A stretch of DNA of 64,000 nt from Polytrichum commune. Lineage: Eukaryota > Streptophyta > Polytrichopsida > Polytrichales > Polytrichaceae. The position numbers were made by a program, and so were the translations under genes. Under the pieces are notes generated by a model. That model was given only the letters and a program-made list of their open reading frames with translations. It did no database searches and was not told where the DNA came from. The stretch is taken from positions 15,148,527 through 15,212,526 of the forward strand of contig OX485808.1 of assembly GCA_950295325.1 (NCBI GenBank), read 5' to 3'. Shown here piece by piece: positions 26,451-48,910 of the stretch (positions within the stretch are counted from its first letter, which is position 1; each line of letters begins with the position of its first letter).

Positions 26451-27569
26451 AGATTTATGAATCCACCTGTAAATCAACTACAGTATGTGTTACCCTAAGT
26501 CAACCGCTTCAAGATTTATAACAATTCCCATGTTCATGATACTTTTATAAAAGAGTTGCATTGTCCTTACGACATGTTTCTATTTGCTAGGAAAAAACAT
26601 GATGCTATTACTCCTCCTACACAGATGCAAACTCTCTTCTTCTATCGCTTATATATAGGTGCCTCAACCGTAAAGTTGGGGTGTGTGCTAGATAGGCCCA
26701 ATATGAGAGCCAAAATGGCTGGCTGGGGTTTGCCTTTTAAGCAACACTTTCTGGTAAGGACTTTACTCTCCAAACTGTCTGTGCCCAAACTTTCCTTTCC
26801 TTTGGAGCCTTTGAAGTTCATTGACTCCCTTGTAAAGAGGGGTGTAGCTTTACCGAGATTCTAAAGCTCTTCGACACAAAAACTTGCACCAAAGTCATCA
26901 CCCAAACACTCGTGGGAGGCCGACTGCCTTGCCCTTCTTTCCAGATGCCGTAGTTAGGTTTGAGGGACCTACCCAAAGCATTTGTTGCACCCTGCGACAC
27001 AATTCTTGTTTTGAAAATAAAGAGTTCATGTCGCAGACATATACATAGAATCACGAAAAGTGTTGGGGTTCCAAATCTCTTTGTCGTATTCCCTCTACCC
27101 GTCCATGTATTGCTGCATTTTTTTAATGTCGCAATTCATCGGGTACTTGAATCAGTGCTTTTACCCGCTGAGTACATGAAAAATGATGCTAAGATAGATG
27201 TCTGATGCACCTAAGGAGGGTGAGGGTTATTCAGTTTGTTTTGATGTTCTCCAACTACTAAACACTATATTCGGTAATTGGAGACTTTTTGTTGATTTTG
27301 AGACTATTTAAGGACGTGGCTTTCACATTTGTAGGAAGGAAAACACTAAAAATATGCTATGTTCCCAATTTTGGAAACAAATAAGAGACTCAAATGCATG
27401 GAACCACACATAAAAATAAGAAAATGGGATATATGAAAACATTTGCATATGGAAAATCAATATCATATTTATTGAATAGGGGTTGAAGTACAAAATACAA
27501 GTGGAATATCCAATATTAGGCGAAAGTCCTAGAAACATAATTCCACAACTACATGTATGTTAATATAGC

Positions 27570-28418
27570 CTATACGTTCGGATCATGATTACGACTCACT
27601 ACTTTTGCTTTTGCAATACTATTATTAGCATTTATGGCCGTTTCACGTTCTTTTGCTTTCATGGCCTCCATGGCTCTAAAGATCTCGGGTCCGCGGCTAA
27701 AACCTTGTGTATTTGTCGACCCCGAATATGTGCCATTTGCCCATATTTGCCGACCCCCTACCGAATAAGTGGAATACGAATGCGATTGGGAAAACGAACG
27801 TCTTTCACTCTTCCGTAGGGCCAAACAACGATCAGACTCGCAAGAAGCAGTCTTCAGTGTTCGCCTATCCAATGACGAAGTCGAGGATGAACGGCCCACA
27901 TTCATGTGTATTGGGGTCTGAAACAATGACCATAAATACATATAATGATGTGGGTTAGTATAAGTTACGGATGGAAGTCCGAAAAACCCAATAATATAAA
28001 ATGCACTAATCCACGGAAATCATGAAGAAAAAACTTGAGAATGCCAATAATTGGGCACCTTGGCCTGCGGGGCGGTGGTTTGAGCTTCTGCGACATCGAG
28101 GGGGGCCACAAGCACAACAGGGACGCTCGTAAACGCCGGGACACCAATTTGGGGTTCATCCATACAAAGGCGTCTGGTCGACCGCGGGTTTCGAACGTGC
28201 TTCTCATTGCGGAGGGGAGATGGAGATGGAGATGGAGCGTAATTGAGTTTTGCAACCTTTGGAGGAGGGCTATCGACAACTCCGTCTTCAAACCCCGAGT
28301 CTTTGGAGTAATCAACAGCAGAGGCGGCATCGACGGCAGAAAATTGAAATAGTGAAGGCATTGAAATGTCGGTCACACGGATGGAAGGGGAGCTGGGGCC
28401 CGGTTTAGATGCACACAT
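27570..28418 (-). CDS. Pro/Ser-rich protein of unknown function, 2 exons, within the giant element
   Basis: I do not recognise a family. My model uses ATG at 28418, exon 1 28418-28059 (donor AAG/GTGCCC), and exon 2 27917-27570 (acceptor TTTCAG). This gives 708 nt and 235 aa in continuous phase. The first exon has SPSPSPLRN and VDSPPPKVAKL. The second is Ser/Arg-rich, then EIFRAMEAMKAKERETA, a possible short helix. The frame is also open up to an acceptor at 28455, so a further 5' exon is possible. The donor is not ideal; AAG/GTTTTT at 28041 is stronger by sequence but breaks phase. It lies just downstream of, and co-oriented with, the phosphatase gene. Confidence 0.45.
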
Positions 28419-28542
28419 GCCATGGACGAGACTTTGGGATCCTTGGTGAGGCAACTAAGACACAAAAATACATTTACAAAATACGGGGAGAAATGTTAGA
28501 TATAAACATGGAGAGTCCAAGTACAAACCCAAAAAGCAGTTA

Positions 28543-29262
28543 TCATATTAATTTATTGAGTTTGGCATAGCCGTACAACCTCCTAAATTCCTCATCTCTT
28601 GGGCCTAGAGGCCTATTGCCAATGGGGTTGGAGAGGACAAAATCCGGGACACTTCCGGGGTGATAGGCAAGCCTCCTAATGTAGGGTCCTAGTTCATTCT
28701 CTAGAAAGTTGTCATTTCTATCACTCTCCCAAGGATCCGGGAATATGCAACTGCCCAGGGGATTGAGAATACTCTTTGCCGGGCTGTCGTCAATGAGGAG
28801 CGTGTTCTCCGGGGTGGGCCAACAACCGTGGGGCACCCCCTCCAACATAGGGACGCCCACCCAAAGGTTCTTCCTCAGTACCTTTAGGAATTGAGGCCCT
28901 CGGCCTCCTCCGACCTTGGGTACAATGTTGCCATTACGGTCATAAAGGTCATCGCAGTGTTCTTGACCGAGAAGCAAGCATGGCATTGCGAGTTCTCGGA
29001 AAAGGAAACCGACGATGGCCTTCGTGTTGTCCATAAGCATAGAGCTCCAGATGATGACATGGGCCAAGCCAAGGACATCACGAAGGAAGCACCTCAACCC
29101 CGGCCGGGCCCGTACAACCTTCTTGTTAATGAGAGTATCGAACTGTCCGCCGTAATCCATGTCTTGTGGACTACGGAAGGGACCCTTCAACGCACTATTG
29201 GAGATATGCATGGAATGACAAAGCACCCCATTGAGGTCAAATATTATGAACGGTTTCCTCAT
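28543..29262 (-). CDS. FCP1/SCP-like HAD-family phosphatase, within the giant element
   Basis: A single open frame of 239 aa. HAD motif I is FDLNG at 8-12: the nucleophile Asp is kept, but the second Asp of the usual DxDG is Asn. Motif II is IIWSS at 70-74 and the late motif is LLIDDSPAKS at 155-164, as in FCP1-homology (CTD small phosphatase, NIF-like) proteins, which act on phospho-Ser/Thr. From memory, a DLNG version exists among plant HAD proteins, so it is not proof of inactivity. The frame stays open upstream to 29310 after an acceptor (ATCACAG), so the true start may be in an earlier exon that I cannot place. Presence inside a transposon suggests captured host cargo or an element regulatory gene. 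Confidence 0.75.
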   Translation of the reverse strand: MRKPFIIFDLNGVLCHSMHISNSALKGPFRSPQDMDYGGQFDTLINKKVVRARPGLRCFLRDVLGLAHVIIWSSMLMDNTKAIVGFLFRELAMPCLLLGQEHCDDLYDRNGNIVPKVGGGRGPQFLKVLRKNLWVGVPMLEGVPHGCWPTPENTLLIDDSPAKSILNPLGSCIFPDPWESDRNDNFLENELGPYIRRLAYHPGSVPDFVLSNPIGNRPLGPRDEEFRRLYGYAKLNKLI

Positions 29263-29478
29263 GGGCCGGCTTGGTCTTTCAGCGGGGTTGCGACATATCT
29301 CCGACGGACCCTGTGATGGAAAATACTATCTAGGTGAATGGTACTACCCATGAAAACCAATTGACAAGCATGCACAAACTCAACAAACAAATATAAGGCA
29401 AAAAGAATACTAATACGCAGTTCAAAAAATTTGTATTAATGTGATTGGTTTAATACATTTCGCGAATAATTTACATTG

Positions 29479-32400
29479 TCACAAAAGGTCTCCCCTAAAA
29501 CTAATTGAATCTATGCTGGCAAAATTGCATCCACCCGCCGGGCGAAGCCGAGCATCGAACTCGACAATATGCACACGCCACGAAGTTGGCAGACAAGGAA
29601 GTTTCGGACGCGCGTCCGTAACGTGGGAGGCAAGCTCAAAGGTGGATTACCTCTTCAGCGGAGAGGCCCTCGCCAGCAGTGCCTCCCTCACCAGGCCCCA
29701 TCGTGGGCACAGGTTCCGGACGCGTGTCCGCAAAATTGTGCATGCTATCCTCCACCACCAAGGCGCCTCCAGCCGCTTGCGACCCCTGGGTATCGACATG
29801 AGGTTGATCTTCATCTGTGGTGTCTTGGCTGCCCCGCATATGTTCATCTTCTTGGCTGCCCCGCATATGTTCATCCTCTTGGCTGCCAATGGTTGTGATG
29901 TCTTCAATGGCGCCTTTCTCGTGAGCACCTGCCGTATAACGTGCAGGTCTCTCCTCCTCTTGTACGCTATGAGAGGAGGGCTTTGGGGTGTCGGCAACCT
30001 GGGGAGAGGGCGGGACATACAAGGCGGGGGGTGGATAGGTATGCTCTGGTATGTACACCGTATGGCTACTAGACGGAGGCCGCATGAGAGTGGGAGGCAT
30101 TGACATGCCGGCTTCGGGAGCTGCATACATTACTGGGGGTCTTGCTTGCAAGCTCTGCATGAGGCTCATAAATTGTTGGCTCTGGGCCAAGAATTGTTGA
30201 TTTTGAGCCATGAGATCGGCGTGCCTTCTAGCAGACTCCAACCTAGCCTCCTCCATCTCAGCTTGGATGGCGGCCATCTTTCTGGCGTGCTCCTCGTTAG
30301 CTTCTCGAAGCCGTTGGTCAAGCTCTTCCTTCATTCTCTTCTCCAGTTTCTCGTCCAATTCGGCCACAGACATCGGCTCTTTCTTCACCTTGCCAGGTTC
30401 AGAAGGCAACGCAGAGAGGGCATTGTACATCCTAACCTCATCCTCGTCTTCATCGGAGAGTTCCAAGACGGCGCCTTCAGGGTACTCGTTGTAAGGAGTC
30501 TTCTTCCTCTGTCGACGACTCTCACGGTATGAGGCGATATCCGGCCTCAAAATCAACTCCAGCACATCTCTACCCTCCATAGGTGGTAGCTCTGCCTGTT
30601 CAGATCCCCCTCCAGATGAGGCTGTGCATCCGGCTTCTGTCGCAACGTCCACATCCTTCTCTGCCATAAGCCCAGCAGCACGCGATGGAACCGCAGTGGA
30701 AGGAAACCCAACTCGAGAAGTGGGAGTCCCAAAGGGAGAGGAAATAGGGGTAGGATGGACCCTTATTGGAGTGAAGTCTTCCTGCGCCCCCTCTGTATCC
30801 ATGTGGTCTTCGCCCAAGACAAATTGATGAGGATGAACAGGATCACGAACAAGGCCGGGCACGTGATCTTGTCTGGCTGGCTGCTCTCTTGGGGAGACGG
30901 GCTCTTGGTCTCCGTCACTGTCCCACTCCGTCGCAGGAGTTCCCTCTTCTCTTGAGGCAAGAGGCACCACAGGATGGGGGGTAAGGACATCGATGATGTC
31001 TTCGATATCCATTTTCGAGGCAAGAACCCTATGAGTATTCGCCTCATCCATGTCGCAAGCCTCCACAAACGAATTTACCTGCAACCCAAGCATCTGCACC
31101 AAAACAAGGAAATTATAGTCATTCCATTGTTGCAAGCAAGTATGAGGACAAATATAATCATGAAGCACTGCAATTTACGGACGCGCGGCCGTAAATTTAC
31201 ACTGCATATTTGTGTGGCCAATGTTACGGACGCGCGGCCGTAAATTTCAATTCAGATGAACCATGGAAAGAGGTGCATACAAGTACTTACCAATGCCGCA
31301 TAAACAAATTTGGTGCCTCCGAAGACGTTGTAAACTGTTTCACTCATCACAGTCACAGCCTTCAAGACTCCAATATAAAAATCCATTCGGAGCTCGTACG
31401 CCGGGTAGATTGCATACATAGTCTCCGCGATAAGCTCCTTGGGGTGTGGTGGTGGCAACGAGTATACTTTCTTGAACACGTTCTGCGCTTTGATAGGCAT
31501 CCGCCCACTTGGTGAAGACTTGTGTGTCAAGAAATAAAGTGCCAAAGCCCCGACCTGCTTCGCCCCTCTTGCCTCTTCAATAACACTGATCCCTTCCGTC
31601 TTCGCGGGGATGTATGTGCTGTGGTAAAGATCGTATTGGAGGTTCATCGTCGATGTGTAAAGCTGGACGACCGATGCGGACCTCTCTTGATCTACGATCC
31701 AGAGCCACACATTTGGCTCGAAGAGGGCAGGCGACCGATAGCTCTTGAAGGCCTTGAAGAAGTTGTCATAGAAAGCGGTCCCGCTAGCGTTTTGTCTCCA
31801 AGATCCGGGAAATGCACGGAAATCAAATAGTGCGAACGGACAACCCCGGGGGTCATCTCTCACAGAGGCTCTTGAAGCATGTGTGTCCCATGTGCCAAAC
31901 TTCAAGGCCGTTGTAACAGTGCAGAATCTTGCGACCCCTTCGAATTTTGCTTTCTTTTTTCTGTCAAGGAAATGGACGTACAACGCCGTCTCTCTTTCGT
32001 CGATAGACCCTTTCTTCTCGTTCCTCCTAGATCTTTGGGCTAGGAAGGGAGATGCGCCTCTTATCAATGATCGCATGGAGACCCCATTGATGTGATATTC
32101 CTCCTTGAGCGTCCTCCAGTTTTCCCACATTATTTCACCATCTGTATCAGTGAGGTTATGGGAGGGCAACAGCTTGCTAATTTCCCTTATAGCCATGGTC
32201 TTCTTCTTCCTGTATTCGCACCATTCCTTAATGTGGTACGTGGAAGGCTTCATGTGCTTCGGCCGCTTCAGGAAGATTTTGGGGTAGGGCAGTGTCCTCC
32301 TCGGAGTCTCCAATAGGATGTGTTGTGCCGCTCTGTACAGTTCGGAGTCGAGCAATCCTTGGAGGGGACGAAAGAACTCTCTCAGGATAGGTGGCACCTT

Positions 32401-34014
32401 AACCTTCGAGTCGCTCTTGTACGTGTTTTCTGCATCCGGATTGATAAGGTCTCCGTTGTTGTGGGCATCGAATAGGCGCAACCAAATTGCCCAGGTCTCT
32501 TCTGTGGCGGTGATGAGCTTAAGTTCCCCCTTCAGCTCCTGCACCGTCTTCATGCCGCTTGTCTTCAAGTCAATGCTGGAGAACTTTGTCAAGATGGCAT
32601 TGCTGAATGTCTGCAATGCCATGTATTACAAGAAATCAGCAGAGCTTAAATCAAAGGAATTAAAGAATTGGAAGGAGATGGGAAGAAATTTACGGACGCG
32701 CGTCCGTAAAATTATACTGAGACATACCTGCCATTTGGGATTCTTGATGACTGCATTCTCCCTCTCTTTTGGGGGACAATCGTGCTCTACCCACAAGGTC
32801 CTTCCAGCCACGATGTTGGCAGCCCATGAAGCCTCGAACTGCCTCACTTTATTCCCTTGGTTCATGAAGGCAGATATTGCGATGAGCTGGTTCGAGTCTT
32901 TGGAATGGACAACGAATGCCTTCCAGTATCGGATTGTCTCTTTCAAAGGGCTCTTCCACTCATCGTCCTCTAGGAGAGCTTTTGCAGCCATCACACTATG
33001 TTGGCCGTCGACTATGTAGAACTCTCCATCTTTGAGAATTGGCCAGTTTTGCGCTGTGACTTCAACCACAGGATCCTTTGGTGTCACACATATGGTTTGC
33101 CTATCAAATTTGGGGTTGTTCATAATGTTATTCATTTGCCACCACACCCCGGTCTCTTCTTTGGCACGAGTATTCATACTCTCCGTGCCCTTGTGGCATT
33201 TGTAGACATCCACATCAAACGTGAAATATCTTCCAAGTGGCCAGCAGCCCTTTGTCTTCTCGTCGAACTCTTGGAAAATCTTTGTGGAAAGTTCGGCGTC
33301 AGGGCGTTGTCCTTTCTTCAGGAGTGGTGCGACAGTAAGAGTAGAGCTCACATCTGGACCCTCTGTTAGCCCTGACGACTCCATCTGTGAGTGGGAGCGT
33401 TTACTAGTCTGCTTGCTCCCTCTTGATGCCCCACTCTGTGAGGGTCTCGAGGCTTCTGGCACGTGTTTAGGAACACGTTTAGGTCGTTCAGGAACTGGTT
33501 TTTTTGCCTTTCATTTCTTGGCTTCCAGTAATGCCCCATTTACTCTTGTCACATTGTTCAAGAGACGTCCAAGCCGTTTACCCGTCCAGGGTGCATTGCA
33601 TGCATAGTCTTGGAATTCATTCTGTAAATTGAAGCAAGACGCATCTGGGCTGGCATTTTCACATTCATTTTTGTTGAACGGATGGTACAACTCGTGCAAA
33701 ATGAATGTGATCCTATCATTTTTCTTTTCAAGGTCAATGACAACATAATCACCTTGGGCTACCGCACACTCTACTGTCCAGTTTTTTACCTTCATCCACT
33801 TCTCGGATTCATGTATATCTACTTTTATTTGATAGGCAAATCTAAGGACAAATATATCATTTTCGTCTTTTTCTACAATAACTGTCCAGTTATCTACAAT
33901 GTCTTCGCGTGGCTTGTAATGGTCGTTGTGGCTTATGTCTTTGATGGCTTTTGGAAGCGGAGGATGGACAAGCTCTGCGAATAAATCAATAGCGGGTCTT
34001 TTTGTAGATTCCAT
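29479..34014 (-). CDS. large ParB-like (DGQHS) / coiled-coil protein of the giant element, 4 exons, one in-frame TGA
   Basis: Exons 34014-32728, 32610-31291, 31093-29651 and 29559-29479 join in phase 0 throughout, giving 1377 codons including one internal TGA and the terminal TGA. The first 167 codons are of unknown fold. After an in-frame TGA at 33513-33511 the frame continues KAKKPVPERPKRVPKH. Codons about 333-340 read YIVDGQHS, like the ParB/DGQHR nucleotide-binding or nuclease motif. Exon 2 (ALFDFRAFPGSW, NVWLWIVDQ) is unrecognised. Exon 3 has acidic patches, a long coiled coil (KLEKRMKEELDQRLREANEE...) and a GSQEDEHMR tandem repeat. Every intron (117, 197 and 91 bp) contains the CGGACGCGCGTCCG-type palindrome. 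The TGA could be a nonsense mutation, a spliced-out site (GTAAAT upstream, CCAG downstream) or readthrough. The last exon is the least sure. Confidence 0.6.
29605..29618. repeat. palindrome core, intron 3 of the ParB-like gene
   Basis: CGGACGCGCGTCCG, flanked by ttt and ta. A second, weaker copy (CGGACGCGTGTCCG, 29717-29730) lies inside exon 3 and is translated as part of FADTRPEP. Confidence 0.85.
31172..31248. repeat. two palindromes in intron 2 of the ParB-like gene
   Basis: Cores cggacgcgcggccg at 31178-31191 and 31227-31240, both with ttac/gtaa arms. They carry the same single change (GTCC to GGCC), so one may be a duplicate of the other. Confidence 0.85.
32687..32714. repeat. palindrome in intron 1 of the ParB-like gene
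   Basis: A perfect core at 32693-32706 with aatttac/gtaaaatt arms, inside a 117-bp intron (32611-32727). Confidence 0.85.
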
Positions 34015-34068
34015 CTGCAAATGTAAAATATACAAGTCAGTATTAAGGTCTGGGGATGCAGAGCCTAT

Positions 34069-34670
34069 CTTACGAACGCGCGGTCGTAAACCTTTGCGTA
34101 CCCTTTCCTATATAGTACATGTCAAATTTACGGACGCATGTCCGTAAACTTGAGACATCTTATAAAAAGAAATCACATACATGATATATGTGCAGAGTTT
34201 ACGGACGCGCGTCCGTAAACTCTGCACATATATCATCCAAAAGTTTCTATTTCTATATTCCATGAATATAATATGTTTTTTATTATTATGTAGCCCTAAT
34301 TTACGGACGTGCGTCCGTAAATTCTTGGAAAATAAGTTCATTTTTGTTGTGTAGAACTTGTATATTTTGTAGAACTTATTTTGAAAACCCATGACATGTA
34401 TTATACTCTGAGATTTTCATAGCTTTTGCTGCCTAGTTTACGGACGCGCGTCCGTAAACTCTGCACATGTATCATGTACCACATTTAGTGTACTTAGATA
34501 TTTCAAGTTTACGGACGCACGTCCGTAAACTTATCATTCATGTTTTTAAATAGTTCTTTTTAAATATATCTACAATTTACGGACGTACGTCCGTAAACTG
34601 TTCACACATAGTGCGATGCATATTCCCAGGGTTCCCTGAAGTTTACGGACGCGCGTCCGTAAACTTCAGG
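34069..34670. repeat. array of eight palindromes upstream of the ParB-like gene
   Basis: Cores at 34073, 34131, 34202, 34304, 34441, 34512, 34580 and 34646, about 60-135 bp apart. The copy at 34181-34236 is a perfect 56-bp palindrome and that at 34635-34670 a perfect 36-bp one. Variants are mostly CG to TG or CA at the central CpGs. The location directly upstream of the start at 34014 suggests a promoter or binding-site array. Confidence 0.9.
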
Positions 34671-35470
34671 CCATTTTTTAATTACTTTGCACAATTACTG
34701 TGTTTCTGGATATTGCTCCGAAATTTTCGGAACAGGTTTTTTGTTGCATTCCATTCATGTGCAATGTTCATCTTTACTTGGAATGCAACATGGATTTGCA
34801 CTCCAAATTAGAATATATCAGGTGTTGCATTGCAATAGCAGATTCTACACTCCAAACTAAGAAGAATGTTCCATTTCAATTTGCAATGTACTAGAAACAC
34901 TTACCTTTGTACAATGTTTGCTGCTCAACCACAGCTACAGCTAGGACAGACTGCAAATTAACAATAAAATTGAAGTTAGAAACCTCTGGTAATGCAATGT
35001 GCACATTCAAGATTCAACTAAACTGTGTGTTGCTCCTAAAATGCATCAAACCCACCAAAAAAACCCTACTACAAAGATTGCACTGGATTGAACATTGACA
35101 TCAGATAGAAGTGAACAAAGCAAAACATATGATTTCTTAGAACTTGGAAAAAGTGAATTCAAATGAAGTGAAGACAATTACAAACTGAAAGGAGGAGCAC
35201 TCTGAAACAACTGAAATACTCCAACCCTAAAACCCTTGCAACAACTGAAACTACTCCATTAATGTCCTAATGAGACTGCAAGCAAAAAACTACTCAATTT
35301 CTGATGTTACTTGCAATTGTGAGTGCAACAAAACATTGCATGCTCACACAATACTCACAATCCTCCTCTTGTGCATCAATACATAAACTCAAATCACCTA
35401 ATTAGCACCTGGAACAGCACATCTAGCAAAGAGGGAAAGAAAAAAACACCTGCCTGGAGCTCCTGGCGCT
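34671..35470. other. no gene; element-internal spacer
   Basis: AT-rich sequence between the palindrome array and the purine tract. Short frames have no signature. Confidence 0.35.
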
Positions 35471-35479
35471 CTTATGGAA

Positions 35480-35760
35480 CTAAGAGCAAGGAGGAGGAGA
35501 AACAACAAAGGAAGAGCAAGGAGGAGGAGGAGGAGAAGGAGGACCAGCAAGGGAGAAGGAGGACCAATAATAGTAGCAAGGGAGAAGGAGGAGAAGGAGC
35601 AGCAGCAGCAAGGGAGAAGGAGGAGAAGGAGGAGCAGCAAGGGCGAGGAGCAAGGGCGAGGAGGAAAGGAACGATGGTGGGCGAGGAGGAAAGGAGCGAA
35701 AGGGAGTAAGCGAAAGGAGCAAAATGAGCAAAAAGGAGCGAAAGGAGCAAAGAGCAAGGG
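35480..35760 (+). repeat. 280-bp polypurine (GAG/GAA-rich) tract
   Basis: Almost uninterrupted A/G on the + strand, built from gaggag, gagaagg and agcaagg units. It produces artificial open frames on both strands; I do not call them genes. Such tracts can form triplex DNA. Confidence 0.85.
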
Positions 35761-35765
35761 AGTGT

Positions 35766-35787
35766 ATCGAAACCCTAAACCCTAAAC
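35766..35787. repeat. telomere-like repeat (CCCTAAA x2)
   Basis: aaaccctaaaccctaaac, the complement of plant TTTAGGG telomere units, at the edge of the polypurine tract. Confidence 0.75.
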
Positions 35788-35888
35788 GTCACATCCACTC
35801 CCTACCTAGACGTCCCATCAACCCGCGCCCAAAGGCCACATGTAACCCTTACGTGGCATATGTCTATTGGTCTATTTTGTGATTGCTA

Positions 35889-36345
35889 GAGTCCACCCTC
35901 GATAAATGTTACACTTCCACATGTTAACTCATAATTGTATTTGTTAACAAATTCGTACTCCTCTCATATTGCTAACTAGAATGTAAACTTTGTTACATGT
36001 TAAGAATAATTTATTCCCCTCTTTGTTAATTTGCCACTTATAAATGTTAACCTACGAACTACATCCAATATTGTGAGATGACATCCATTACATTGAGTCA
36101 CAACCTTTCAAAGTGGCAAAAGCCACCAAATTTGACTTTTGTGATCAAATTATTAATATGGGTTATATTGTGATTGATACACATATTTTATAATTTATAA
36201 TTTTGCAAAACTCTCCCTCCATAATTGTAATGAATCAAATTTGTTAAGCATTCAAAAAGCTCCCTTTATAGTTGTTACAATGTTAACTCACAATAAATGT
36301 AAGGAAAATTATATTCTAGAGCATAACATTTATAGAGGATGGATT
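35889..36345. mobile_element. pogo-like MITE nested in the giant element
   Basis: Ends GAGTCCACCCTCGATAAATG and, on the reverse, CAATCCATCCTCTATAAATG, with TA on both sides (35887-35888, 36346-36347). Same family as 928-1466. Confidence 0.7.
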
Positions 36346-39040
36346 GTATGTGGTGAGTCCAAAAACGAATACCAAAAACAATTGCTGACAAAAAATAAAG
36401 GAATCTCAATGCTCAAATTATAATAACCATCTAGGCCCAATAGTAAACATAATTTTGAAGTATGGGTTGAGGTTGAGTAACTCAAGTGTAAGATTTTCTT
36501 TGTGGACTTGTTGTAATATGAAGGTAAGCGGGCTTTAAATTACTAGTACACTAAATATTATAAGTAGTATTGCTTAATATTTAGAATTATGGAATGCTAT
36601 ATTAACTATTCATTGTATATTATGTCATTGGCATCAATTAAATAACATCAATAATAAAAAAGATAAAGCATTTTGTAATTTTTTACCACAAAGGTGGGAT
36701 TCAAATGCAATTGGGACAATAATATACCCATTGGCCAAAAATTCAATTAACCCTAAACCCCTACACCCTTATGAATCCCTCAATTATCGCAATAATTTGT
36801 GAAAGGGGATTTTCAACCTAAATTATACTATCAATAGCAACTTGGGGACTTTATTGAAGTTGGACACTTGGGATGCTTTGATGTGAATATCATTATTAAT
36901 GATATTTAAATTAAGCATGTTTGAAACACAATTAACAAAACCAAACATCGAGATAATATGGGTTAAGATCAAATGCTTATAATATCTTAAACAACGTTAG
37001 GGGTTAATTCAATCCCTCTGCACATAGGTCTAAGCTTGTATTAGAACAAAAGGAATGGGTAGGTGTTGAATTTACATCCCTCTTGTCCATTAAACAACCT
37101 TCAGGATTCATGCAATCCTTCCAAACCTAGGCATGAGCTTGTATTATCGCCTATAAGTAGTAGCAAATTGTTGTTTATATTGGAGTTTTGTTTCCACGAC
37201 ATGTATGGTTGTGTTAAGTATTCGATTATAGAATACCAATATATGATGTTCAAAACCTATCTTCAAAAGTAAAGGTTTAAAGCAAATGGATAAATATGAC
37301 TTAGAACATAACTTTGATGATCTTAAATGTTTTGAAGGCTTAATTGTTTTCATATTGTATCCCATCAAAGAATAACAAGTCTCGGCTAAATCTTGTACTT
37401 GCCTCTAAGGGGTGGATTTTACCCAGGCAAACAAAGATTAAAAAAATGAAAGGTAAGGTTACGCAACCCATGTACCTTTTTCCTTAGCCAAATTAAGACC
37501 ACATATCGGATTGCCATTCACAATTTGATAAATCTTTGTTCTATGTCACCTACTTTTTCACCACTTACCATGTCTTCAAGAATAATTTGTAAACATAAAT
37601 TTGCTTGACTTTTGAAATCTTGATGGTTTTGTTTTAGAGAATTTTAAGCCTTGACATGAGTCGGGAGTCGTTTATACGGTTTAGGGTTTAGGGTTTAGGG
37701 TTAAGAGTATCCCCCTTGTGTCACCGACTTAATATTGGTTGCCTTATTACTATTTAGATACCCTACCCTCCCTTTCTGTCCATTATATTTTATGGGTTAA
37801 TAGTATTACATAGAACAACAATTGGTATAATTGTTTGCTTGCTTGTTTTGAATTACTTTCCACTTAAGCCTTGACATGTATCAGGAGTTGTTCAGTTAAC
37901 CATGCTTGCATCTCTATGTCCATATGTTTGTTTAGGTTTGGGTGGTTATAGGGTTTAGGGTTGAGGGTAAGAATGTTACTTGGAGCAACAATTGGTATTG
38001 TTTGAGCATTAATTAATGTAGGTAATGTACATGAGGTACTAAAATATGTTTTTCCTCACGTATAGTACATGAAGAAGGCTAGTATAATTAGTTTTTTTGA
38101 AGTAAATGTTGATGTACGGAAGGGGCCCCTAAGGTTTAGAGAGAAAATTGATAATATTGAATTTAATGCAACCCATGTTACCTAGGACAATAGATGTGCT
38201 ACTATCATGGCCTTACGGTAATCAAAGTTTCTGTATCAGATTTGAATACAATTATGTATAGGTGTGTATAGGTGGGTAAATTAAAAATGTTGGATGGTTA
38301 GGTGGTGGCCAATGTAATTATAATATTAAATGCAAGATGAGAGGAGATAGCATGATATTATGGTCAATACCATTACATTGTATGCAAAACAATAAAGTAG
38401 TTGCTAATTTAATTTTGATTACATGTATTTTTATACTCCATGTACTATTGTTGTTGCTAATTTAATTTTGTTGTCTACGTTTTTTTAAATGTACTCTTCA
38501 TATTAGGTACTCCAATATTATAAACCACCCCTCAACAATGTTTATTGCTCATATAATATTAGCCAATTTACTTTGTTGTATACCACAAATACATAGATGC
38601 CTTTTTCTTTGTCATTATGTGGACTCATGGTCTATGCATGTAGTCCACATGAATACACATTCCATTGTAAGGCTGGCACACGGAATGTAGTAATGCTAGG
38701 TTTGTATTTATAGGACATAGTTGGTGGCTGGTATCCTATGTTGGAAAACGGATCCAAGGTAAAGCGATCAGTACTTAAGGGGACACCCCCCACCGTCGGG
38801 ACTCTTTTTGCATCTCAGCTGTGGGTTGCGCTCTTGTAGTGTGCTCCTGCTACAGATTTTGTGCAGGTAAAGATCCTATTGCAATGGACCTATTATACCC
38901 TAAACCCAAAGTCCTGAGCCCATTAGGGTACACAATTTGTATTTGGGTTGCACTCTCCTTGTAGTGTGCTGATTTTTTTAAAATTTCGGACAGTTATCCT
39001 TTCTGGTGCAATGATCCTATTTTCACGCCGCAAATCACGG
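36346..39040. other. no gene; central spacer of the giant element
   Basis: AT-rich spacer between the two divergent genes. It includes a solo left end of the ACTACACTAAATAT MITE family near 36545 (tacactaaatattataagta) and a telomere-like tract at 37676-37703. No coding frame is supported. Confidence 0.4.
37676..37703 (+). repeat. telomere-like repeat (TTTAGGG x3)
   Basis: ggtttagggtttagggttta and onward, ending ttaag. A degenerate piece (tagggtttagggttgaggg) lies near 37950. Confidence 0.8.
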
Positions 39041-39042
39041 AG

Positions 39043-39880
39043 ATTTCCGAACGCGCGTCCGTAAACCTTAAACATATTGGTTCATTGAACCTTTATTTGT
39101 TTTAGCCAATACTCATGTACGTTGAGGTTTACGGACGCGCGTCCGTAAGCCTGCATACCTTTGGTGCTATAGTTCTGTAGGTCACCTACACCACCTGTCG
39201 TGTAGAGCACCACAACGACAATATATTACCATGGAAGTTTACGGACGCGCGTCCGTAAACCCCTTGGCGCGTTGGACATTGTATTTAGGCTAGTAATGAT
39301 GTCCACAGAGGTGTATTCCATCGATCACTGTCTTTATGCTAGGAATGAGGTCCACAGAGGTTTACGGACGCGCGTCCGTAAACCTGGAAATCTTTGTTAC
39401 CATAATGTGCCATGTAGACTGAGACTGCAGTGAGACTGTACGGTCATGAAGGGTTGGGAGCTCGCATCCCTTAGCCTACATCACCCTATGTGTCATACTA
39501 TAATAATTTGACAGTGATTAAACATTTTAGGAAGCGCGTATGGGCGTGTTCAAACCTCTTCAAATTTCATGAGTCGTCAGGCCTGTGTATACATGGCCGT
39601 GTTTGGAGGACCTCTTGCTTCCTTGAACCTCTGTCTAGGACTACATTGATGTTTGTTATACGGATGTTTACGAACGTGCGTCCGTATACCTTTGTTTTGG
39701 TTGAGGGTTTAACTGAACTTTGTGTACGAGCCGATTTACGGATGCACGTCCATAAACCAGTGATGTTTTTTTTGCCTCCTCCTTTCCGCTCCTATGAACA
39801 CATCAATGTATCCGTATGCGCGTGTGCTTGCGCTGCTGATGTTATTACATGGAGGTATACGGACGCACGTTCGTATACCA
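39043..39880. repeat. array of seven palindromes upstream of the transposase gene
   Basis: Cores at 39048, 39132, 39242, 39365, 39671, 39739 and 39860. The first four are near perfect; the last three carry CG-to-TG/CA or single changes. The array ends about 150 bp before the transposase ATG, mirroring the array before the ParB-like gene. Confidence 0.9.
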
Positions 39881-40022
39881 ATGTTAGCTTTGTTTTCAAG
39901 CCATGAAATCCACTAGTGTTCACATTGTGTTTCATTGACAATAATAAGCGTTAGAGCTATCCATGACATTTATTGAATGGGATATTTTGACATACTCTTC
40001 ATTTGGCTCTCTTGTAGTGGCC

Positions 40023-43000
40023 ATGGATTCCAACGTCAGTGATAGTGGGGTTGATTTTTCGTCGGAAGCGTCAAGCTATGCTAGCGAGTTTGAAGTTGTC
40101 GTGGAACAAGAAACTACAATTGGTGTCGCCAATGTAGAGGATGAATTCCTCCCACCATGTGAGGGTTATTCCCGGGAGCAGTGGATTGATCTTGATGTCT
40201 TCCTCCTCAATGGATGTGGCGTCCCCGTGGCCGATGGTGTTTGTCGGAACTCGAATCCTACGGATTGTATTGATGCAAATCCCCTTGGGGAAGAAGATGT
40301 GGGGGTGTGCATTTTGAATTCCTTACATCTGTTGGAAGTGCCTTTTGGTTGGAGATTCTCTCTTCGTCGATGGCCGTTGCGCAGTGTTCTTCATGATGGT
40401 GTCAGCTTGTGGAATCATTCCCGCCGTTTTGATCAAATGCAATCGGCATTGTTCTCCACAATGCGCCCTAGAATGGGTCGGCATAAATATGATTCCGTTC
40501 GTTTGCCTCGTGAACCCACGCAACGTCGTCGAGATCAAACATTGGGAGATGCATCTATTAGGTCCGTAGCAACAAAGGATTGTTGTGCAAAGAGATGTTG
40601 CCAACTATTTCCCCGTGACAAGATCAAATCTTTGAGACAAGAGATGTGGCTCGCGGACTTTCGTATGCGATCTGCAAAGAAACTTGAAGTCCATCGCAAC
40701 ATGCATCTTGATGTCGAAGGTCGTAAGGTTGTGACCTTGGAAAATGTCGAGATATGTTACAAGGCATGGTACATTATACATGCAGTTTCAAAGGCAGATT
40801 TTTATAGGTTCCGGAACTACTCGATGCAAGGACGCCGTTCTCGGTTCCATGGCAACTCTGGCACAAAGAAGCCTAGGGAGGCAACACTCCAAGCGGCTGC
40901 AACACTATCAACCATCATTATGCCATTGGCAGATGCGATGCCACACAAGACGCGAACTCTGCCGTCGGGGGAAAAGGTTGTTCAGATGGTTTTGCCTACA
41001 GGGACAAAATGGAAGAACATACTTATGGATGTTAATGAAGTTGGCGAAAAGGCTGGATGTGGGCCGATTTCGTTGTCAAAATTGAGTGTGATCAAGAATC
41101 AACGATTCGCAGAATACATTACGAAGAGACCTGGGGATAAGTTTGCCAGGTGTTCTGCTTGTGAGAAATATAAAGGCCTTCGAGATGCACATCCCATTGG
41201 GACTAAGTCCCACAACCGACATCAACTGAAATACATTGAGCATGTCAACAACCAGGAGGCACACCGTCAAGACTACTACAAGAATCGCGCATTATCGATA
41301 ATGAGGCCGAATGAAGTTTTGACAATCATTCATGACAAAATGGACCATGCAAAGACGGCGTGCCCTTGTTATGCGCGGAAAATAAAGGCTACAGATGGAT
41401 ATTTCAAGCTTCCAATATCTGTCACAGGTTTGTTGGTTTCCACATTTATTTTTTGCGCGCCCACATACTCATTGTTAAGATTTACGGATGTACGTCCGTA
41501 AGTGTACATTTTTTTGCTTGCTTGGGGAAATTTTTGAATTTCATTCATATATACGATTTGTGTGGCTAAATGCAGGTATGATCGCACATGGTCATGTGGA
41601 CGTGAAATATGCACATTATGGCTTGGATTTCTATCCTGGCGACGCCAATCATACCGTAGGGTCTTTTGCAAAACTTCTACGAGATCTTGAGAGTCCGCCC
41701 ACATCATCCTCTCGTGCTCTTTTTGTTGGATGTGGAACAACACCGATTTATGAGGCTGTGCTAGAGGGGAAGGAGGTTTGCCTATCTTCACTGCAAGAAC
41801 CGCCTGAACAACCCGTTCTTGCTAAACCTTTGCCTCCAACTCTACACGTGCAACTTGACAATTGTGCCAAGGACAACAAATGTCGATACGTATTTTGTTT
41901 TTGGTCATTGCTCGTAGCCAAGGGCATTTTCAAAGAAGTGTTTGTGTCTTTTTTTATGGTTGGCCACACGCACGATGACATTGACGCTTCATTCGGACGT
42001 TGGAGTATGAAGTTGCACGAGGAGGATTTTCCCACAATTCCTCTTCTCATGAAATCGTACATGGATTTGGATAATGTGCCAGTCATCCCGCATTTGATTG
42101 AAGAAATGCCCGATTTCAAATCGTTTATCAAACCATTCATTCTTAAGGGAGGTGACCGCTTAGTGGGCCATACCAAGGCTCAACAATTCCGATTCTATAT
42201 GTGTGATGATGGTCTGCCGGCCATGCAATTCAAAGTTTTGTGTACCTCCCCGAATTGGGGCCCAGAGGAAGGGATACTCGTATGGCGCCAAAACGAAGAT
42301 GGCAAATGTATGCTACCTGATGGGGAGCCGAAGCCCTGCAAACCCAACCCCATGAGGAATGGACCAGAAATCATCAAAGGTATATCTGGATTCATCGAGT
42401 ACTGGAAAGATTTGTGCGAGGAAGACATCACAAGACGTGTTCGGGATACCCACGAACCATTGATTGCGTATTGGAATCGCATCCGCTCAGCGTTGCTAGC
42501 ACCCGAAGACGATAGACCATCATGTTTGACACAAGGTTTTTGGCCACTAAGCCGAGTGACAATCGTGGAATCTGAGGCCATGTTCTTCAACAATGGGGAC
42601 GTTCGTGAAGAGTTCGCGGCGGACGACCATTATGTTGGCCCTGCTCGTAATCGCCCGGCTCCATCATTTCGTGTGGCTATTGATTGCTACGAAGGTTATA
42701 TGGTCCTCGTACGTCCTGGAGATGAGGAACATCCTAAACCGATTTGGTTGGTGAAAGCATTGTCATCACCAAATTTTGTTCCAACTAGCCCAAATTTTCG
42801 TCAAATTGAGGTGGAATATTGCCGTCCAAGCACCAAAGATCAAAATGTGCTCCGCACATATTTAGGGTGGGATACGAAAAAAGGTTTCAAATGGACAATG
42901 GACTCAGCATACGAACCAATATGGATAAACACGGATACCATACTTTGTGCTTGGAAACCACGCAAAGGTTCCAAAACTGAAACAATGACCATCCCCCAAA

Positions 43001-43098
43001 AACATATAGATTTTGCCAAAGACAACTTGGCACGTATTGCTGCTGCAGAAAACAATGTCGAGAATGGAAATGAAGCAGAAGATGAAGATGGTGAATGA
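40023..43098 (+). CDS. putative DDE/RNase-H-type transposase (DUF7869-like), 2 exons, in the giant element
   Basis: Exon 1 is 40023-41427 (donor ACAG/GT) and exon 2 is 41576-43098 (acceptor TGCAG). The total is 2928 nt and 975 aa, with the join reading SVTG-MIAHGHVDVKYAHYG. ATG 40023 has a strong context (gccATGG). A Cys-rich patch (CSACEKYKG, CPCYARK) precedes the core. VQLDNCAKDNK (D563) and VGHTHDDIDASF (598-608) give two acidic positions, as in proteins annotated from memory as DUF7869-like. A catalytic third acid cannot be fixed by eye. The tail is acidic (EAEDEDGE). The frame is intact, so the element may be young. The 148-bp intron contains one palindrome (41485-41498). Other reading: a domesticated or cargo protein. 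Confidence 0.75.
41485..41498. repeat. palindrome core in the transposase intron
   Basis: cggatgtacgtccg with ttta/taag arms, inside intron 41428-41575. Confidence 0.8.
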
Positions 43099-43208
43099 TA
43101 TTGACGTAGGTTTGGACCAAAGATATTTGAATGTGTATTGGTTTTTCATAAAATATATGACATTGGGGTCGAATACTATATTAGACACATTTTATAGCAA
43201 TTTTATAG

Positions 43209-43410
43209 ATTACAATTATATTGCATGGATGCATTGATTTACGGATGTGGAATCCAAATTTTTTTATGTTTGTGTTATTACGGATGTGGACCCTAAACTA
43301 TATAATTATATTGCATGGATGCATTGATTTACGGATGTGGAATCCAAATGTTTTTTATGTCTGTGTTTTTACGGATGTGGACCCTAAACTATATAATTAT
43401 ATTGCAGATG
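43209..43410 (+). repeat. tandem duplication of half-palindrome units near the right end of the giant element
   Basis: Two ~100-bp units, each with gatttacggatgtggaatcc and ttacggatgtggaccc. The left half of the palindrome (ttacggatg) is kept and the right half is lost. It lies between the transposase stop and the right terminal repeat. Confidence 0.7.
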
Positions 43411-43649
43411 CTAATTTGCAATTTCGTGTCATTGGAATATTGTGTTGGCATAGTTTTGATTATCAACTGAATAATTACTATATTTAGAAACATATATATT
43501 CATCACATATGGATCTTTAAAACATTATGTTGCCATTGTTCCCCATGTTCCCCATGTTCGCTACGTTCACAATATTCGCATCCGAAACTACGGGTCCAAT
43601 TTATTTTGAGACTTTCCAAAGTCTCCAATTAACGAATATAGTGTTACTA

Positions 43650-48660: not shown

Positions 48661-48910
48661 ATCACTATATCCGTTAATCAAAGACTTTGGAAAGTCTCAA
48701 AATAAACTTTACTCATGGTTTGAGATGCAATATTGTGAATGTGGGGAACATTGGTCATGAACTTTCTACATATTCATGCATGAGGAATATATATATATAT
48801 AATAAATATCTATATCATAATCAAAACCTGCACTAAACACGATATCGGACTTGAAGTCCTTGATTAGTCTCCAAATCATGAAAAAATCTCCAATTAACGA
48901 ATATAGTGAT
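48661..48910. mobile_element. 250-bp MITE sharing the giant element's termini
   Basis: The left end is ATCACTATATCCGTTAATC, then aaagactttggaaagtctca. The reverse of the right end is ATCACTATATTCGTTAATTG, then gagat. The flanks are agtt at 48657-48660 and 48911-48914. The sub-terminal agactttggaaagtct is also at the right end of the 16.4-kb element. This is probably a non-autonomous partner mobilised by the same transposase. Confidence 0.85.

Follow-up and report, generated by a model that had tools for sequence, protein, structure and literature searches.

The 64,000-nucleotide stretch of Polytrichum commune DNA analyzed here (the window) contains, at 27261–43645, a 16.4-kb block of spliced genes enclosed by inverted ends, which raises the question of whether this block is a mobile element, of which kind, and how its additional genes and repeats relate to it. 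Our answer, which we regard as fairly probable, is that it is a recently active cut-and-paste transposon with a DUF7869 transposase, standing companion genes, and palindromes that would serve in self-recognition. Its features are listed below; TIR and TSD stand for terminal inverted repeat and target-site duplication.

27257–27260: left TSD copy, ACTA, 4 bp
27261–27288, plus strand: left TIR, G-type end, adjoining the FCP1-like gene
27570–28454, minus strand: short open reading frames, which are probably either 3′ exons belonging to the FCP1-like gene or a separate small gene
28543–29325, minus strand: FCP1/NIF-like (HAD phosphatase-like) gene, Pfam NIF
29601–29622: palindrome downstream of the ParB-like gene
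29636–34014, minus strand: weakly ParB-like gene with one in-frame stop at 33511–33513 in the window copy; approximate exons 34014–32728, 32610–31291 and 31093–29636, splice sites read by eye
31174–31244: two intronic palindromes, ParB-like gene
32689–32710: one perfect palindrome, also intronic, ParB-like gene
34070–34663: array of eight palindromes upstream of the ParB-like gene, three with no mismatch to TTACGGACGCGCGTCCGTAA
39045–39876: array of seven palindromes, some degenerate, upstream of the transposase gene
40023–41427, plus strand: exon 1 of the predicted transposase, with the first acidic motif, IxDxMD (D438/D441 of the protein)
41428–41575, plus strand: transposase intron, 148 bp, GT-AG, with one palindrome at 41482–41501
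41576–43098, plus strand: exon 2 of the predicted transposase, DUF7869, with the second (D563) and third (D602/D603/D605) acidic motifs
43618–43645, minus strand: right TIR, T-type end, adjoining the 3′ end of the transposase gene
43646–43649: right TSD copy, ACTA, 4 bp

The central intergenic region also holds TTTAGGG telomere-type repeats at 37680–37703 (plus strand), with more near 35773 and 37947. These repeats, the GT-AG introns and the genome's seven large contigs (406 of 408 Mb) are in keeping with a land plant, perhaps a moss. An Rfam scan and a tRNA scan of the window each returned 0 matches.

The first-pass annotation had reported matching inverted ends at 27261 and 43645 and a flanking ACTA repeat, and both observations hold: the left end, AACACTATATTCGGTAATTGGAGACTTT, recurs as its complement with one mismatch at the right end (27 of 28 bp), and ACTA lies directly outside both. 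Chance TIR matches had a mean of 0 in 100 shuffles of the window. Across the same genome, the end was found 1032 times in forward and 1033 times in reverse orientation (up to two mismatches), and a reversed-pattern control gave 0 matches. As the annotation had anticipated, the ends pair elsewhere: 17 of the 20 neighboring end pairs that we fetched are flanked by an exact 4-bp duplication, and adding the window copy (ACTA) and a sibling copy (CAAT) brings the figure to 19 of 22, the other three pairs having no exact TSD. An exact TIR lies 451–880 bp downstream of 24 of the 33 transposase matches in the listed TIR range, and all 24 are T-type; at the other side, 17 FCP1-like matches have an exact TIR no more than 4.5 kb away, of G-type in 12 and of T-type in 5. 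Given these five, the end types mark orientation only with exceptions.

Empty sites had been set beforehand as a check of the boundary. The joined flanks of 18 elements with exact TSDs (the 17 and the window copy) were searched against the genome. Gapless paralogous empty sites spanning the whole junction were recovered for 5 of the 18 elements, with best identities of 97–100%; two of the five (L009/10 and L015/16) are insertions into tandem repeats, in which empty units adjoin the element. For the window's own insertion site, none was found among the 40 of 3526 candidates in this genome search. Paired TIRs with a target duplication of fixed length, together with empty sites carrying a single TSD copy, characterize the block as a cut-and-paste element, and its insertion would proceed via a 4-bp staggered cut.

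The annotation's view that one gene is intact and another interrupted by a single stop was confirmed: the spliced transposase gene encodes 975 amino acids without a stop, and the ParB-like gene carries the stop listed above. Among transposase exon-2 matches, 67 of 85 are free of stops (counted by eye), and the three conserved Asp motifs persist, a few losses aside, at identities as low as about 24%. On the strength of these motifs, the DUF7869 protein is probably the element's DDD-type transposase and would cut at the 28-bp ends. A Pfam scan of both exons returned DUF7869 only, a PDB profile search gave 0 relatives, two AlphaFold models had pLDDT values of 31 and 34, too low to show whether the protein has the RNase H fold predicted in the annotation, and no paper naming DUF7869 was found in the literature searched. 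EnSpm/CACTA elements are likewise large multigene plant elements and have a 3-bp TSD. The present TIR does contain CACTA but starts AACACTA, and the annotation's separation of the element from CACTA/EnSpm was borne out, as the TSD is 4 bp rather than 3 bp and neither exon has a TNP2-type match in Pfam. VANDAL/MULE membership was rejected on similar grounds, there being no MULE match in Pfam and the TSD being 4 bp, whereas that of Mutator is 7–12 bp according to the available excerpt of the source (PMC10741241).

Two further genes accompany the transposase. The FCP1-like cargo named in the annotation is supported by Pfam NIF (E = 2e-11; 44.2 bits against a cut-off of 21.8); the NCBIfam search gave nothing but a sub-cut-off FCP1 relative, and the adjoining short open reading frames have no Pfam match. 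FCP1/SCP (NIF) phosphatases share the catalytic motif DxDx(T/V), in place of which all three aligned copies have DLNGVL as motif I. The ParB-like designation fared less well: the best PHROGs match is indeed "ParB-like partition protein", albeit a weak one (E = 0.017–0.021 in three of four members), and no significant Pfam or PDB match was obtained, the PDB search giving one unrelated match (E = 0.29) and a further PDB profile search 0 matches at E = 0.1. Where the window copy has its stop, other copies have longer open frames; stops are also present in several other copies.

That this cargo travels with the element, as the annotation had proposed, is evident from its linkage. On the opposite strand within 60 kb upstream of the transposase, an FCP1-like match was found for 79 of 85 transposase matches and a ParB-like match likewise for 79 of 85, and in 56 of 85 both genes lie at the standard distances of 16 kb and 12 kb, in the standard order and orientation. 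This count used 120 of 147 FCP1-like and 122 of 150 ParB-like matches, those under about 65% identity being left out. Between the window and sibling copies, dN/dS in six exon stretches is well below 1 (0.05–0.36). These data support the two genes as standing parts of the element rather than accidental passengers. The family is high-copy and, with 23 copies sharing one identical FCP1-like score, apparently recent.

The annotation had not mentioned palindromes. A palindrome of about 20 bp occurs in 21 copies (up to four mismatches over 20 bp), 20 of which are non-coding, in promoters and introns, a distribution with a chance probability of 3e-5 if the sites are independent. Under a stricter setting (up to three mismatches over 22 bp), 17 lie in the element and none elsewhere in the window, where 0 are expected. 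Exonic palindromes amount to one in the window copy and one in the sibling. Spacing in the window copy is irregular, and the clear palindromes nearest the ends (up to four mismatches) are some 2.3 kb inside the left end and 2.1 kb inside the right end. Looser relatives of the palindrome were seen at 27965–27985, and half-sites at 43240–43400. Genome-wide, the palindrome of the window family has 1641 sites, against 0 for the control. Among the matches listed, all on C1, 52 of 53 distinct sites have a listed family gene match no more than 20 kb away, against 2.2% of random C1 positions.

Four other DUF7869 lineages have different palindromes in similar places. One such palindrome, TTTGGGTCGATCGACCCAAA, has 9456 genome sites (control, 0); CCACGGGTGATCACCCGTGG and GGTGAGGCATATGCCCCACC belong to further lineages, and TTTAGCTCGACTCGAGCTAAA to L052. 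The scan of relatives left out L043, L045 and L046. No such palindrome was found in the examined parts of L044 and L049; L049 was left out of the family tally because its two palindromes lie beyond its TIR. L052 was the sole relative among 92 pattern matches in GTDB contigs. Its contig measures 4.3 kb and belongs to a metagenome-assembled cyanobacterium, so that a bacterial origin is unlikely and eukaryotic contamination probable; 76 pattern matches in viral contigs included 0 relatives. The window family and the 502-type family share the transposase-side end and have completely different palindromes. A ParB-like homologue is present in the 502-type family, and both FCP1-like and ParB-like homologues are present in L063. 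The 692-type family also has palindromes, and the 8.4 kb upstream of its transposase gene hold neither FCP1-like or ParB-like matches nor a complete open reading frame of at least 150 amino acids; a ParB-like gene is therefore not always near. The left ends of the 692-type and 502-type families were not found in the stretches read. In the palindrome-bearing families, short family-specific motifs are concentrated in non-coding DNA and form tandem-repeat arrays, and they turn over from one family to the next.

VANDALs are Mutator-like elements, and in VANC-type anti-silencing a protein of the element binds the motif and removes methylation. VANDAL/VANC systems have short family-specific motifs, often in tandem, in intronic, intergenic and terminal non-coding DNA, and these motifs turn over rapidly between families, as described in the available excerpts (PMC5735166, PMC10398659). 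The element resembles them in being multigene with family-specific motifs in non-coding DNA and differs in its transposase and in its motif, a palindrome of about 20 bp. In view of this resemblance, we read the palindromes as putative sites, specific to each family, for the binding of a regulator that the element encodes. Such a protein would recognize its own family by binding palindromes in promoters and introns, and might thereby keep the family unsilenced or regulate it, as VANC does on VANDAL elements. The ParB-like protein and the transposase are the candidate binders. A weakly ParB-like protein (with a DGQHS motif) and many palindromes on the same element recall ParB-parS, but the ParB homology is not significant and the 692-type palindromes occur without a ParB-like match in the 8.4 kb upstream.

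Several other explanations have to be weighed against this. The size, gene number and introns of the repeat would suit host genes duplicated segmentally or in tandem, a reading to which we give practically no weight: the TIRs and 4-bp TSDs speak against it, and the empty sites with one TSD copy refute it. A more serious competitor, to which we assign a little less than an even chance, is an ordinary member of the Sola DDD superfamily, enlarged by captured genes and carrying palindromes as usual cis-regulatory sites. Sola elements have a DDD transposase, a 4-bp TSD and variable TIRs, exceed 15 kb in some members and are reported in Physcomitrella (PMC10741241, available excerpt); the TSD, the three conserved Asp motifs and the large size of our element fit this account. 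Against it, the excerpt makes no mention for Sola of multigene cargo, a linked gene set or family-specific palindrome arrays, a comparison made at the level of description. Placement of the element in an undescribed lineage is accordingly not established, Sola having been compared by description only. Among DNA transposons of Physcomitrium, the available excerpt of another source names Mariner alone (PMC7466625).

The companion genes and palindromes invite doubts of their own. Neutral capture of the FCP1-like and ParB-like genes, with no role for the element, would accord with the stops in the window ParB-like gene and in several other copies; we consider it improbable given the standard position and orientation in 56 of 85 copies, the low dN/dS, and the homologues that related families have, the 502-type a ParB-like one and L063 both. 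As to the palindromes, CACTA elements have subterminal repeats that bind the transposase and are needed for excision, and ours could be comparable transposase-binding sites or structural (hairpin) sites. The 692-type family, in which the transposase is the sole gene found in the stretch read, is in keeping with this; yet the clear palindromes are not subterminal, being placed in promoters and introns, and the window and 502-type families combine a common transposase-side end with completely different palindromes. We judge this explanation rather unlikely, and prefer that of a transposon with self-recognition palindromes. A bolder version, that DUF7869 defines a separate DDD superfamily whose families each encode a DNA-binding protein, possibly ParB-like, that loads onto family-specific palindromes throughout the element and holds its own family open for transcription, as an independently evolved form of sequence-specific anti-silencing outside Mutator-like elements, we likewise judge rather unlikely.

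The element offers a functional label for DUF7869, and its high-copy, apparently recent family provides a system for studying transposition and silencing. Should the palindromes turn out to be the sites by which each family recognizes itself, then two or more unrelated groups of transposons would have evolved sequence-specific anti-silencing, and large plant transposons could be using it as a widespread strategy.

The element at 27261-43645 is a mobile transposon that has recently multiplied, produces 4-bp duplications, carries co-inherited genes and contains palindromes specific to its family. Its features are as follows.

27261-27288: left terminal inverted repeat (TIR), AACACTATATTCGGTAATTGGAGACTTT, with ACTA immediately outside
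28543-29325: FCP1/NIF-like gene (E 2e-11)
~34014-29636, minus strand: ParB-like gene, with one in-frame stop in the window copy
40023-41427 and 41576-43098: transposase, 975 aa, stop-free
43618-43645: right TIR, complement of AACACTATATTCGGTAATTGGAGACTTT with 1 difference, with ACTA immediately outside

Both the matching inverted ends and the ACTA repeat reported in the first-pass annotation are present, and no TIR match is expected by chance in the window. At ≤2 mismatches, the TIR pattern matched the 407.8-Mb genome at 1032 forward and 1033 reverse sites, against 0 for the reversed control. G-type and T-type ends differ by one base, which usually, with exceptions, marks the orientation of the copy. 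An extra end-like sequence, ATCACTATATTCGTTAATTGGAGATTTT (48883-48910, minus strand, 2 mismatches), has no partner inside the window.

Target site duplications (TSDs) were examined in the window family, the copies sharing these ends, using 20 neighbouring plus/minus end pairs, 7.5 to 56 kb apart, from the first 100 TIR matches listed. An exact 4-bp duplication was found in 17 of the 20, and the match extended to 5 bp in only one of these; another pair agreed at three of four bases, and two pairs showed no match. Inclusion of the window copy (ACTA) and a second copy, the sibling (CAAT), gave exact TSDs in 19/22, with a weak sequence preference (last position A or T in 18/19). For 18 elements (the 17 and the window copy), the two flanks were then fused around a single copy of the duplication, and the genome was searched for the resulting sequences. 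Scoring 40 of the 3526 candidates recovered gapless paralogous empty sites running through the junction for at least 5 of the 18, with best identities of 97-100%. In two of these cases, L009/10 and L015/16, the element sits in a tandem repeat whose empty units adjoin it. For the window's own insertion site, no empty site was found among the same 40 of 3526 candidates. The annotation had looked to copies with 4-bp duplications or empty sites for confirmation, and both exist.

A 4-bp TSD and a transposase with no TNP2-type match exclude CACTA/EnSpm, as had been proposed. Superfamilies with DDD/E transposases in Repbase number 20 or 21 in the parts of the two sources used (PMC9587614 and PMC10045372, respectively). 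Sola, described in an excerpted source as having a DDD transposase, a 4-bp TSD and some members >15 kb, and as occurring in Physcomitrella (PMC10741241), is, by description, the best fit among the superfamilies compared. No paper naming the DUF7869 domain was found in the literature searched.

The second transposase exon has a Pfam match to DUF7869 (E 9e-39). Across 11 further DUF7869 loci of the same genome (~24 to 66% identity to the window protein by tblastn), the motifs IxDxMD, QxDNCxxxNK and VGHTH(D/E)D(I/V)D are kept where covered, except that the second Asp is missing from L041, L043 reads GHIH and L046 falls short of the first motif. In the window protein, the acids are D438/D441, D563 and D602/D603/D605, and the three Asp motifs appear to match the expectation for a DDD transposase. 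Two AlphaFold models had pLDDT values of 31 and 34, and in the second a strand-helix-strand-helix was predicted at low confidence around motifs 2 and 3; a PDB-sequence profile search with the transposase gave no match.

The annotated gene states, one intact and one with a single stop, hold for the transposase and the ParB-like gene, respectively, and the proposed FCP1-like cargo was recovered as the NIF match at 28543-29325. FCP1 phosphatases carry the motif DxDx(T/V); all three aligned copies of the FCP1-like protein read DLNGVL at this place, and the protein is possibly not an ordinary phosphatase. The "ParB-like" label stands in part: the DGQHS motif is present, but similarity to a ParB-like partition protein is sub-significant (E 0.017-0.021, in 3/4 members), and signs of kinship are limited to these two.

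Genome matches scored numbered at least 85 for transposase exon 2 (67 of the 85 free of stops by a visual count), 147 for the FCP1-like gene and 150 for the ParB-like exon. Linkage was assessed with 120 FCP1-like and 122 ParB-like matches, those under ~65% identity having been dropped. Upstream, on the opposite strand and within 60 kb, 79/85 transposases had an FCP1-like match and 79/85 a ParB-like match, with both at standard spacing in 56; for comparison, an FCP1-like match lay within 60 kb downstream, on either strand, in 6/85. Among the TIR matches listed, an exact TIR lay 451-880 bp downstream of the transposase in 24 of 33 cases, all T-type, and within 4.5 kb of an FCP1-like match in 17 of 48 (12 G-type, 5 T-type). 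Between the window and sibling copies, dN/dS was 0.05 to 0.36 over six exon stretches. Synonymous divergence was 0.16-0.23 in the transposase and FCP1-like exons and far higher, 0.39-0.76, in the ParB-like exons, so the ParB-like gene seems to have a history different from that of its flanking genes; the comparison (29636-34014 against L061) suggests exchange between lineages.

The ~20-bp palindrome TTACGGACGCGCGTCCGTAA, absent from the first-pass annotation, occurs 17 times in the element (≤3 mismatches over 22 bp) and not in the rest of the window. A search at ≤4 mismatches over 20 bp gives 21 palindromes. Twenty of these are non-exonic, lying upstream of both divergent genes, in the introns of both and 3' of the ParB-like gene, a bias with a binomial chance of 3e-5 if sites are independent and 52.7% of the element is non-coding (approximate exon bounds). 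In the sibling, 17/18 are non-coding, with runs spaced 135 bp and 95 bp. The genome holds 1641 TTACGGACGCGCGTCCGTAA sites at ≤1 mismatch (control 0); among the matches listed, all on contig C1, 52 of 53 distinct sites had a listed family gene no more than 20 kb away, against 2.2% of random C1 positions. Near the right end, a 91-bp tandem repeat (43214-43406) contains TTTACGGATGTGG stretches resembling one palindrome arm.

Other DUF7869 families have palindromes of their own. The AACACTATATTCGTTAA end beside the transposase is common to the window family, L049 (~62%) and the 502-type family (~65%), and the last has a ParB-like gene (~39%) at the same place. Its palindrome, TTTGGGTCGATCGACCCAAA, is unlike that of the window family; the two copies read hold 32 and 29, lying upstream of the transposase and, at the ParB-like gene, both upstream and in an intron, and the genome holds 9456 sites (control 0). 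The 692-type family (44%) has a different end and the palindrome CCACGGGTGATCACCCGTGG upstream and in the intron; the 8.4 kb upstream of its transposase contain neither a cargo match nor a complete ORF of ≥150 aa. L041/L042 (~25%) have GGTGAGGCATATGCCCCACC upstream. In L052 (51% identity in exon 2; second motif QMDNA), TTTAGCTCGACTCGAGCTAAA-like 21-bp palindromes flank the gene on both sides; this sole relative found beyond the genome lies on a contig filed in GTDB as an uncultured cyanobacterium, probably eukaryotic contamination. The scan, run without L043, L045 and L046, found no palindrome in L044, within the TIR of L049 or in L048 (a short 502-type stretch), and five single unrelated ones in the rest of the window. 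The palindrome thus changes between families, even with a common end, while the kind of placement persists.

Of 10 sequences scanned, each an element or a locus, 7 carry short TTTAGGG telomere-type repeats (≤1 mismatch in 14): the window copy (35773, 37680, 37947), the sibling (L061 and L062), both 502-type and both 692-type copies (L053-L060), and L042, downstream of the gene (L042:56). The remaining 47.6 kb of the window and the partial loci L043, L047 and L052 had none.

We propose that DUF7869, the putative transposase, would cut and join DNA, and that an element-encoded protein would bind the palindromes, which we consider somewhat probable to be its binding sites. The ParB-like protein is an attractive candidate binder, but would not be the only one, since the 692-type has palindromes and no cargo match in those 8.4 kb. 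The nearest parallel is VANDAL: according to the portions of PMC5735166 and PMC10398659 drawn on here, VANC proteins bind short family-specific motifs and remove silencing; the motifs are tandem repeats that change rapidly and lie in the non-coding DNA of introns, intergenic stretches and termini. Both systems have family-specific motifs in non-coding DNA. By analogy, the palindromes may serve anti-silencing in particular, a tentative reading.
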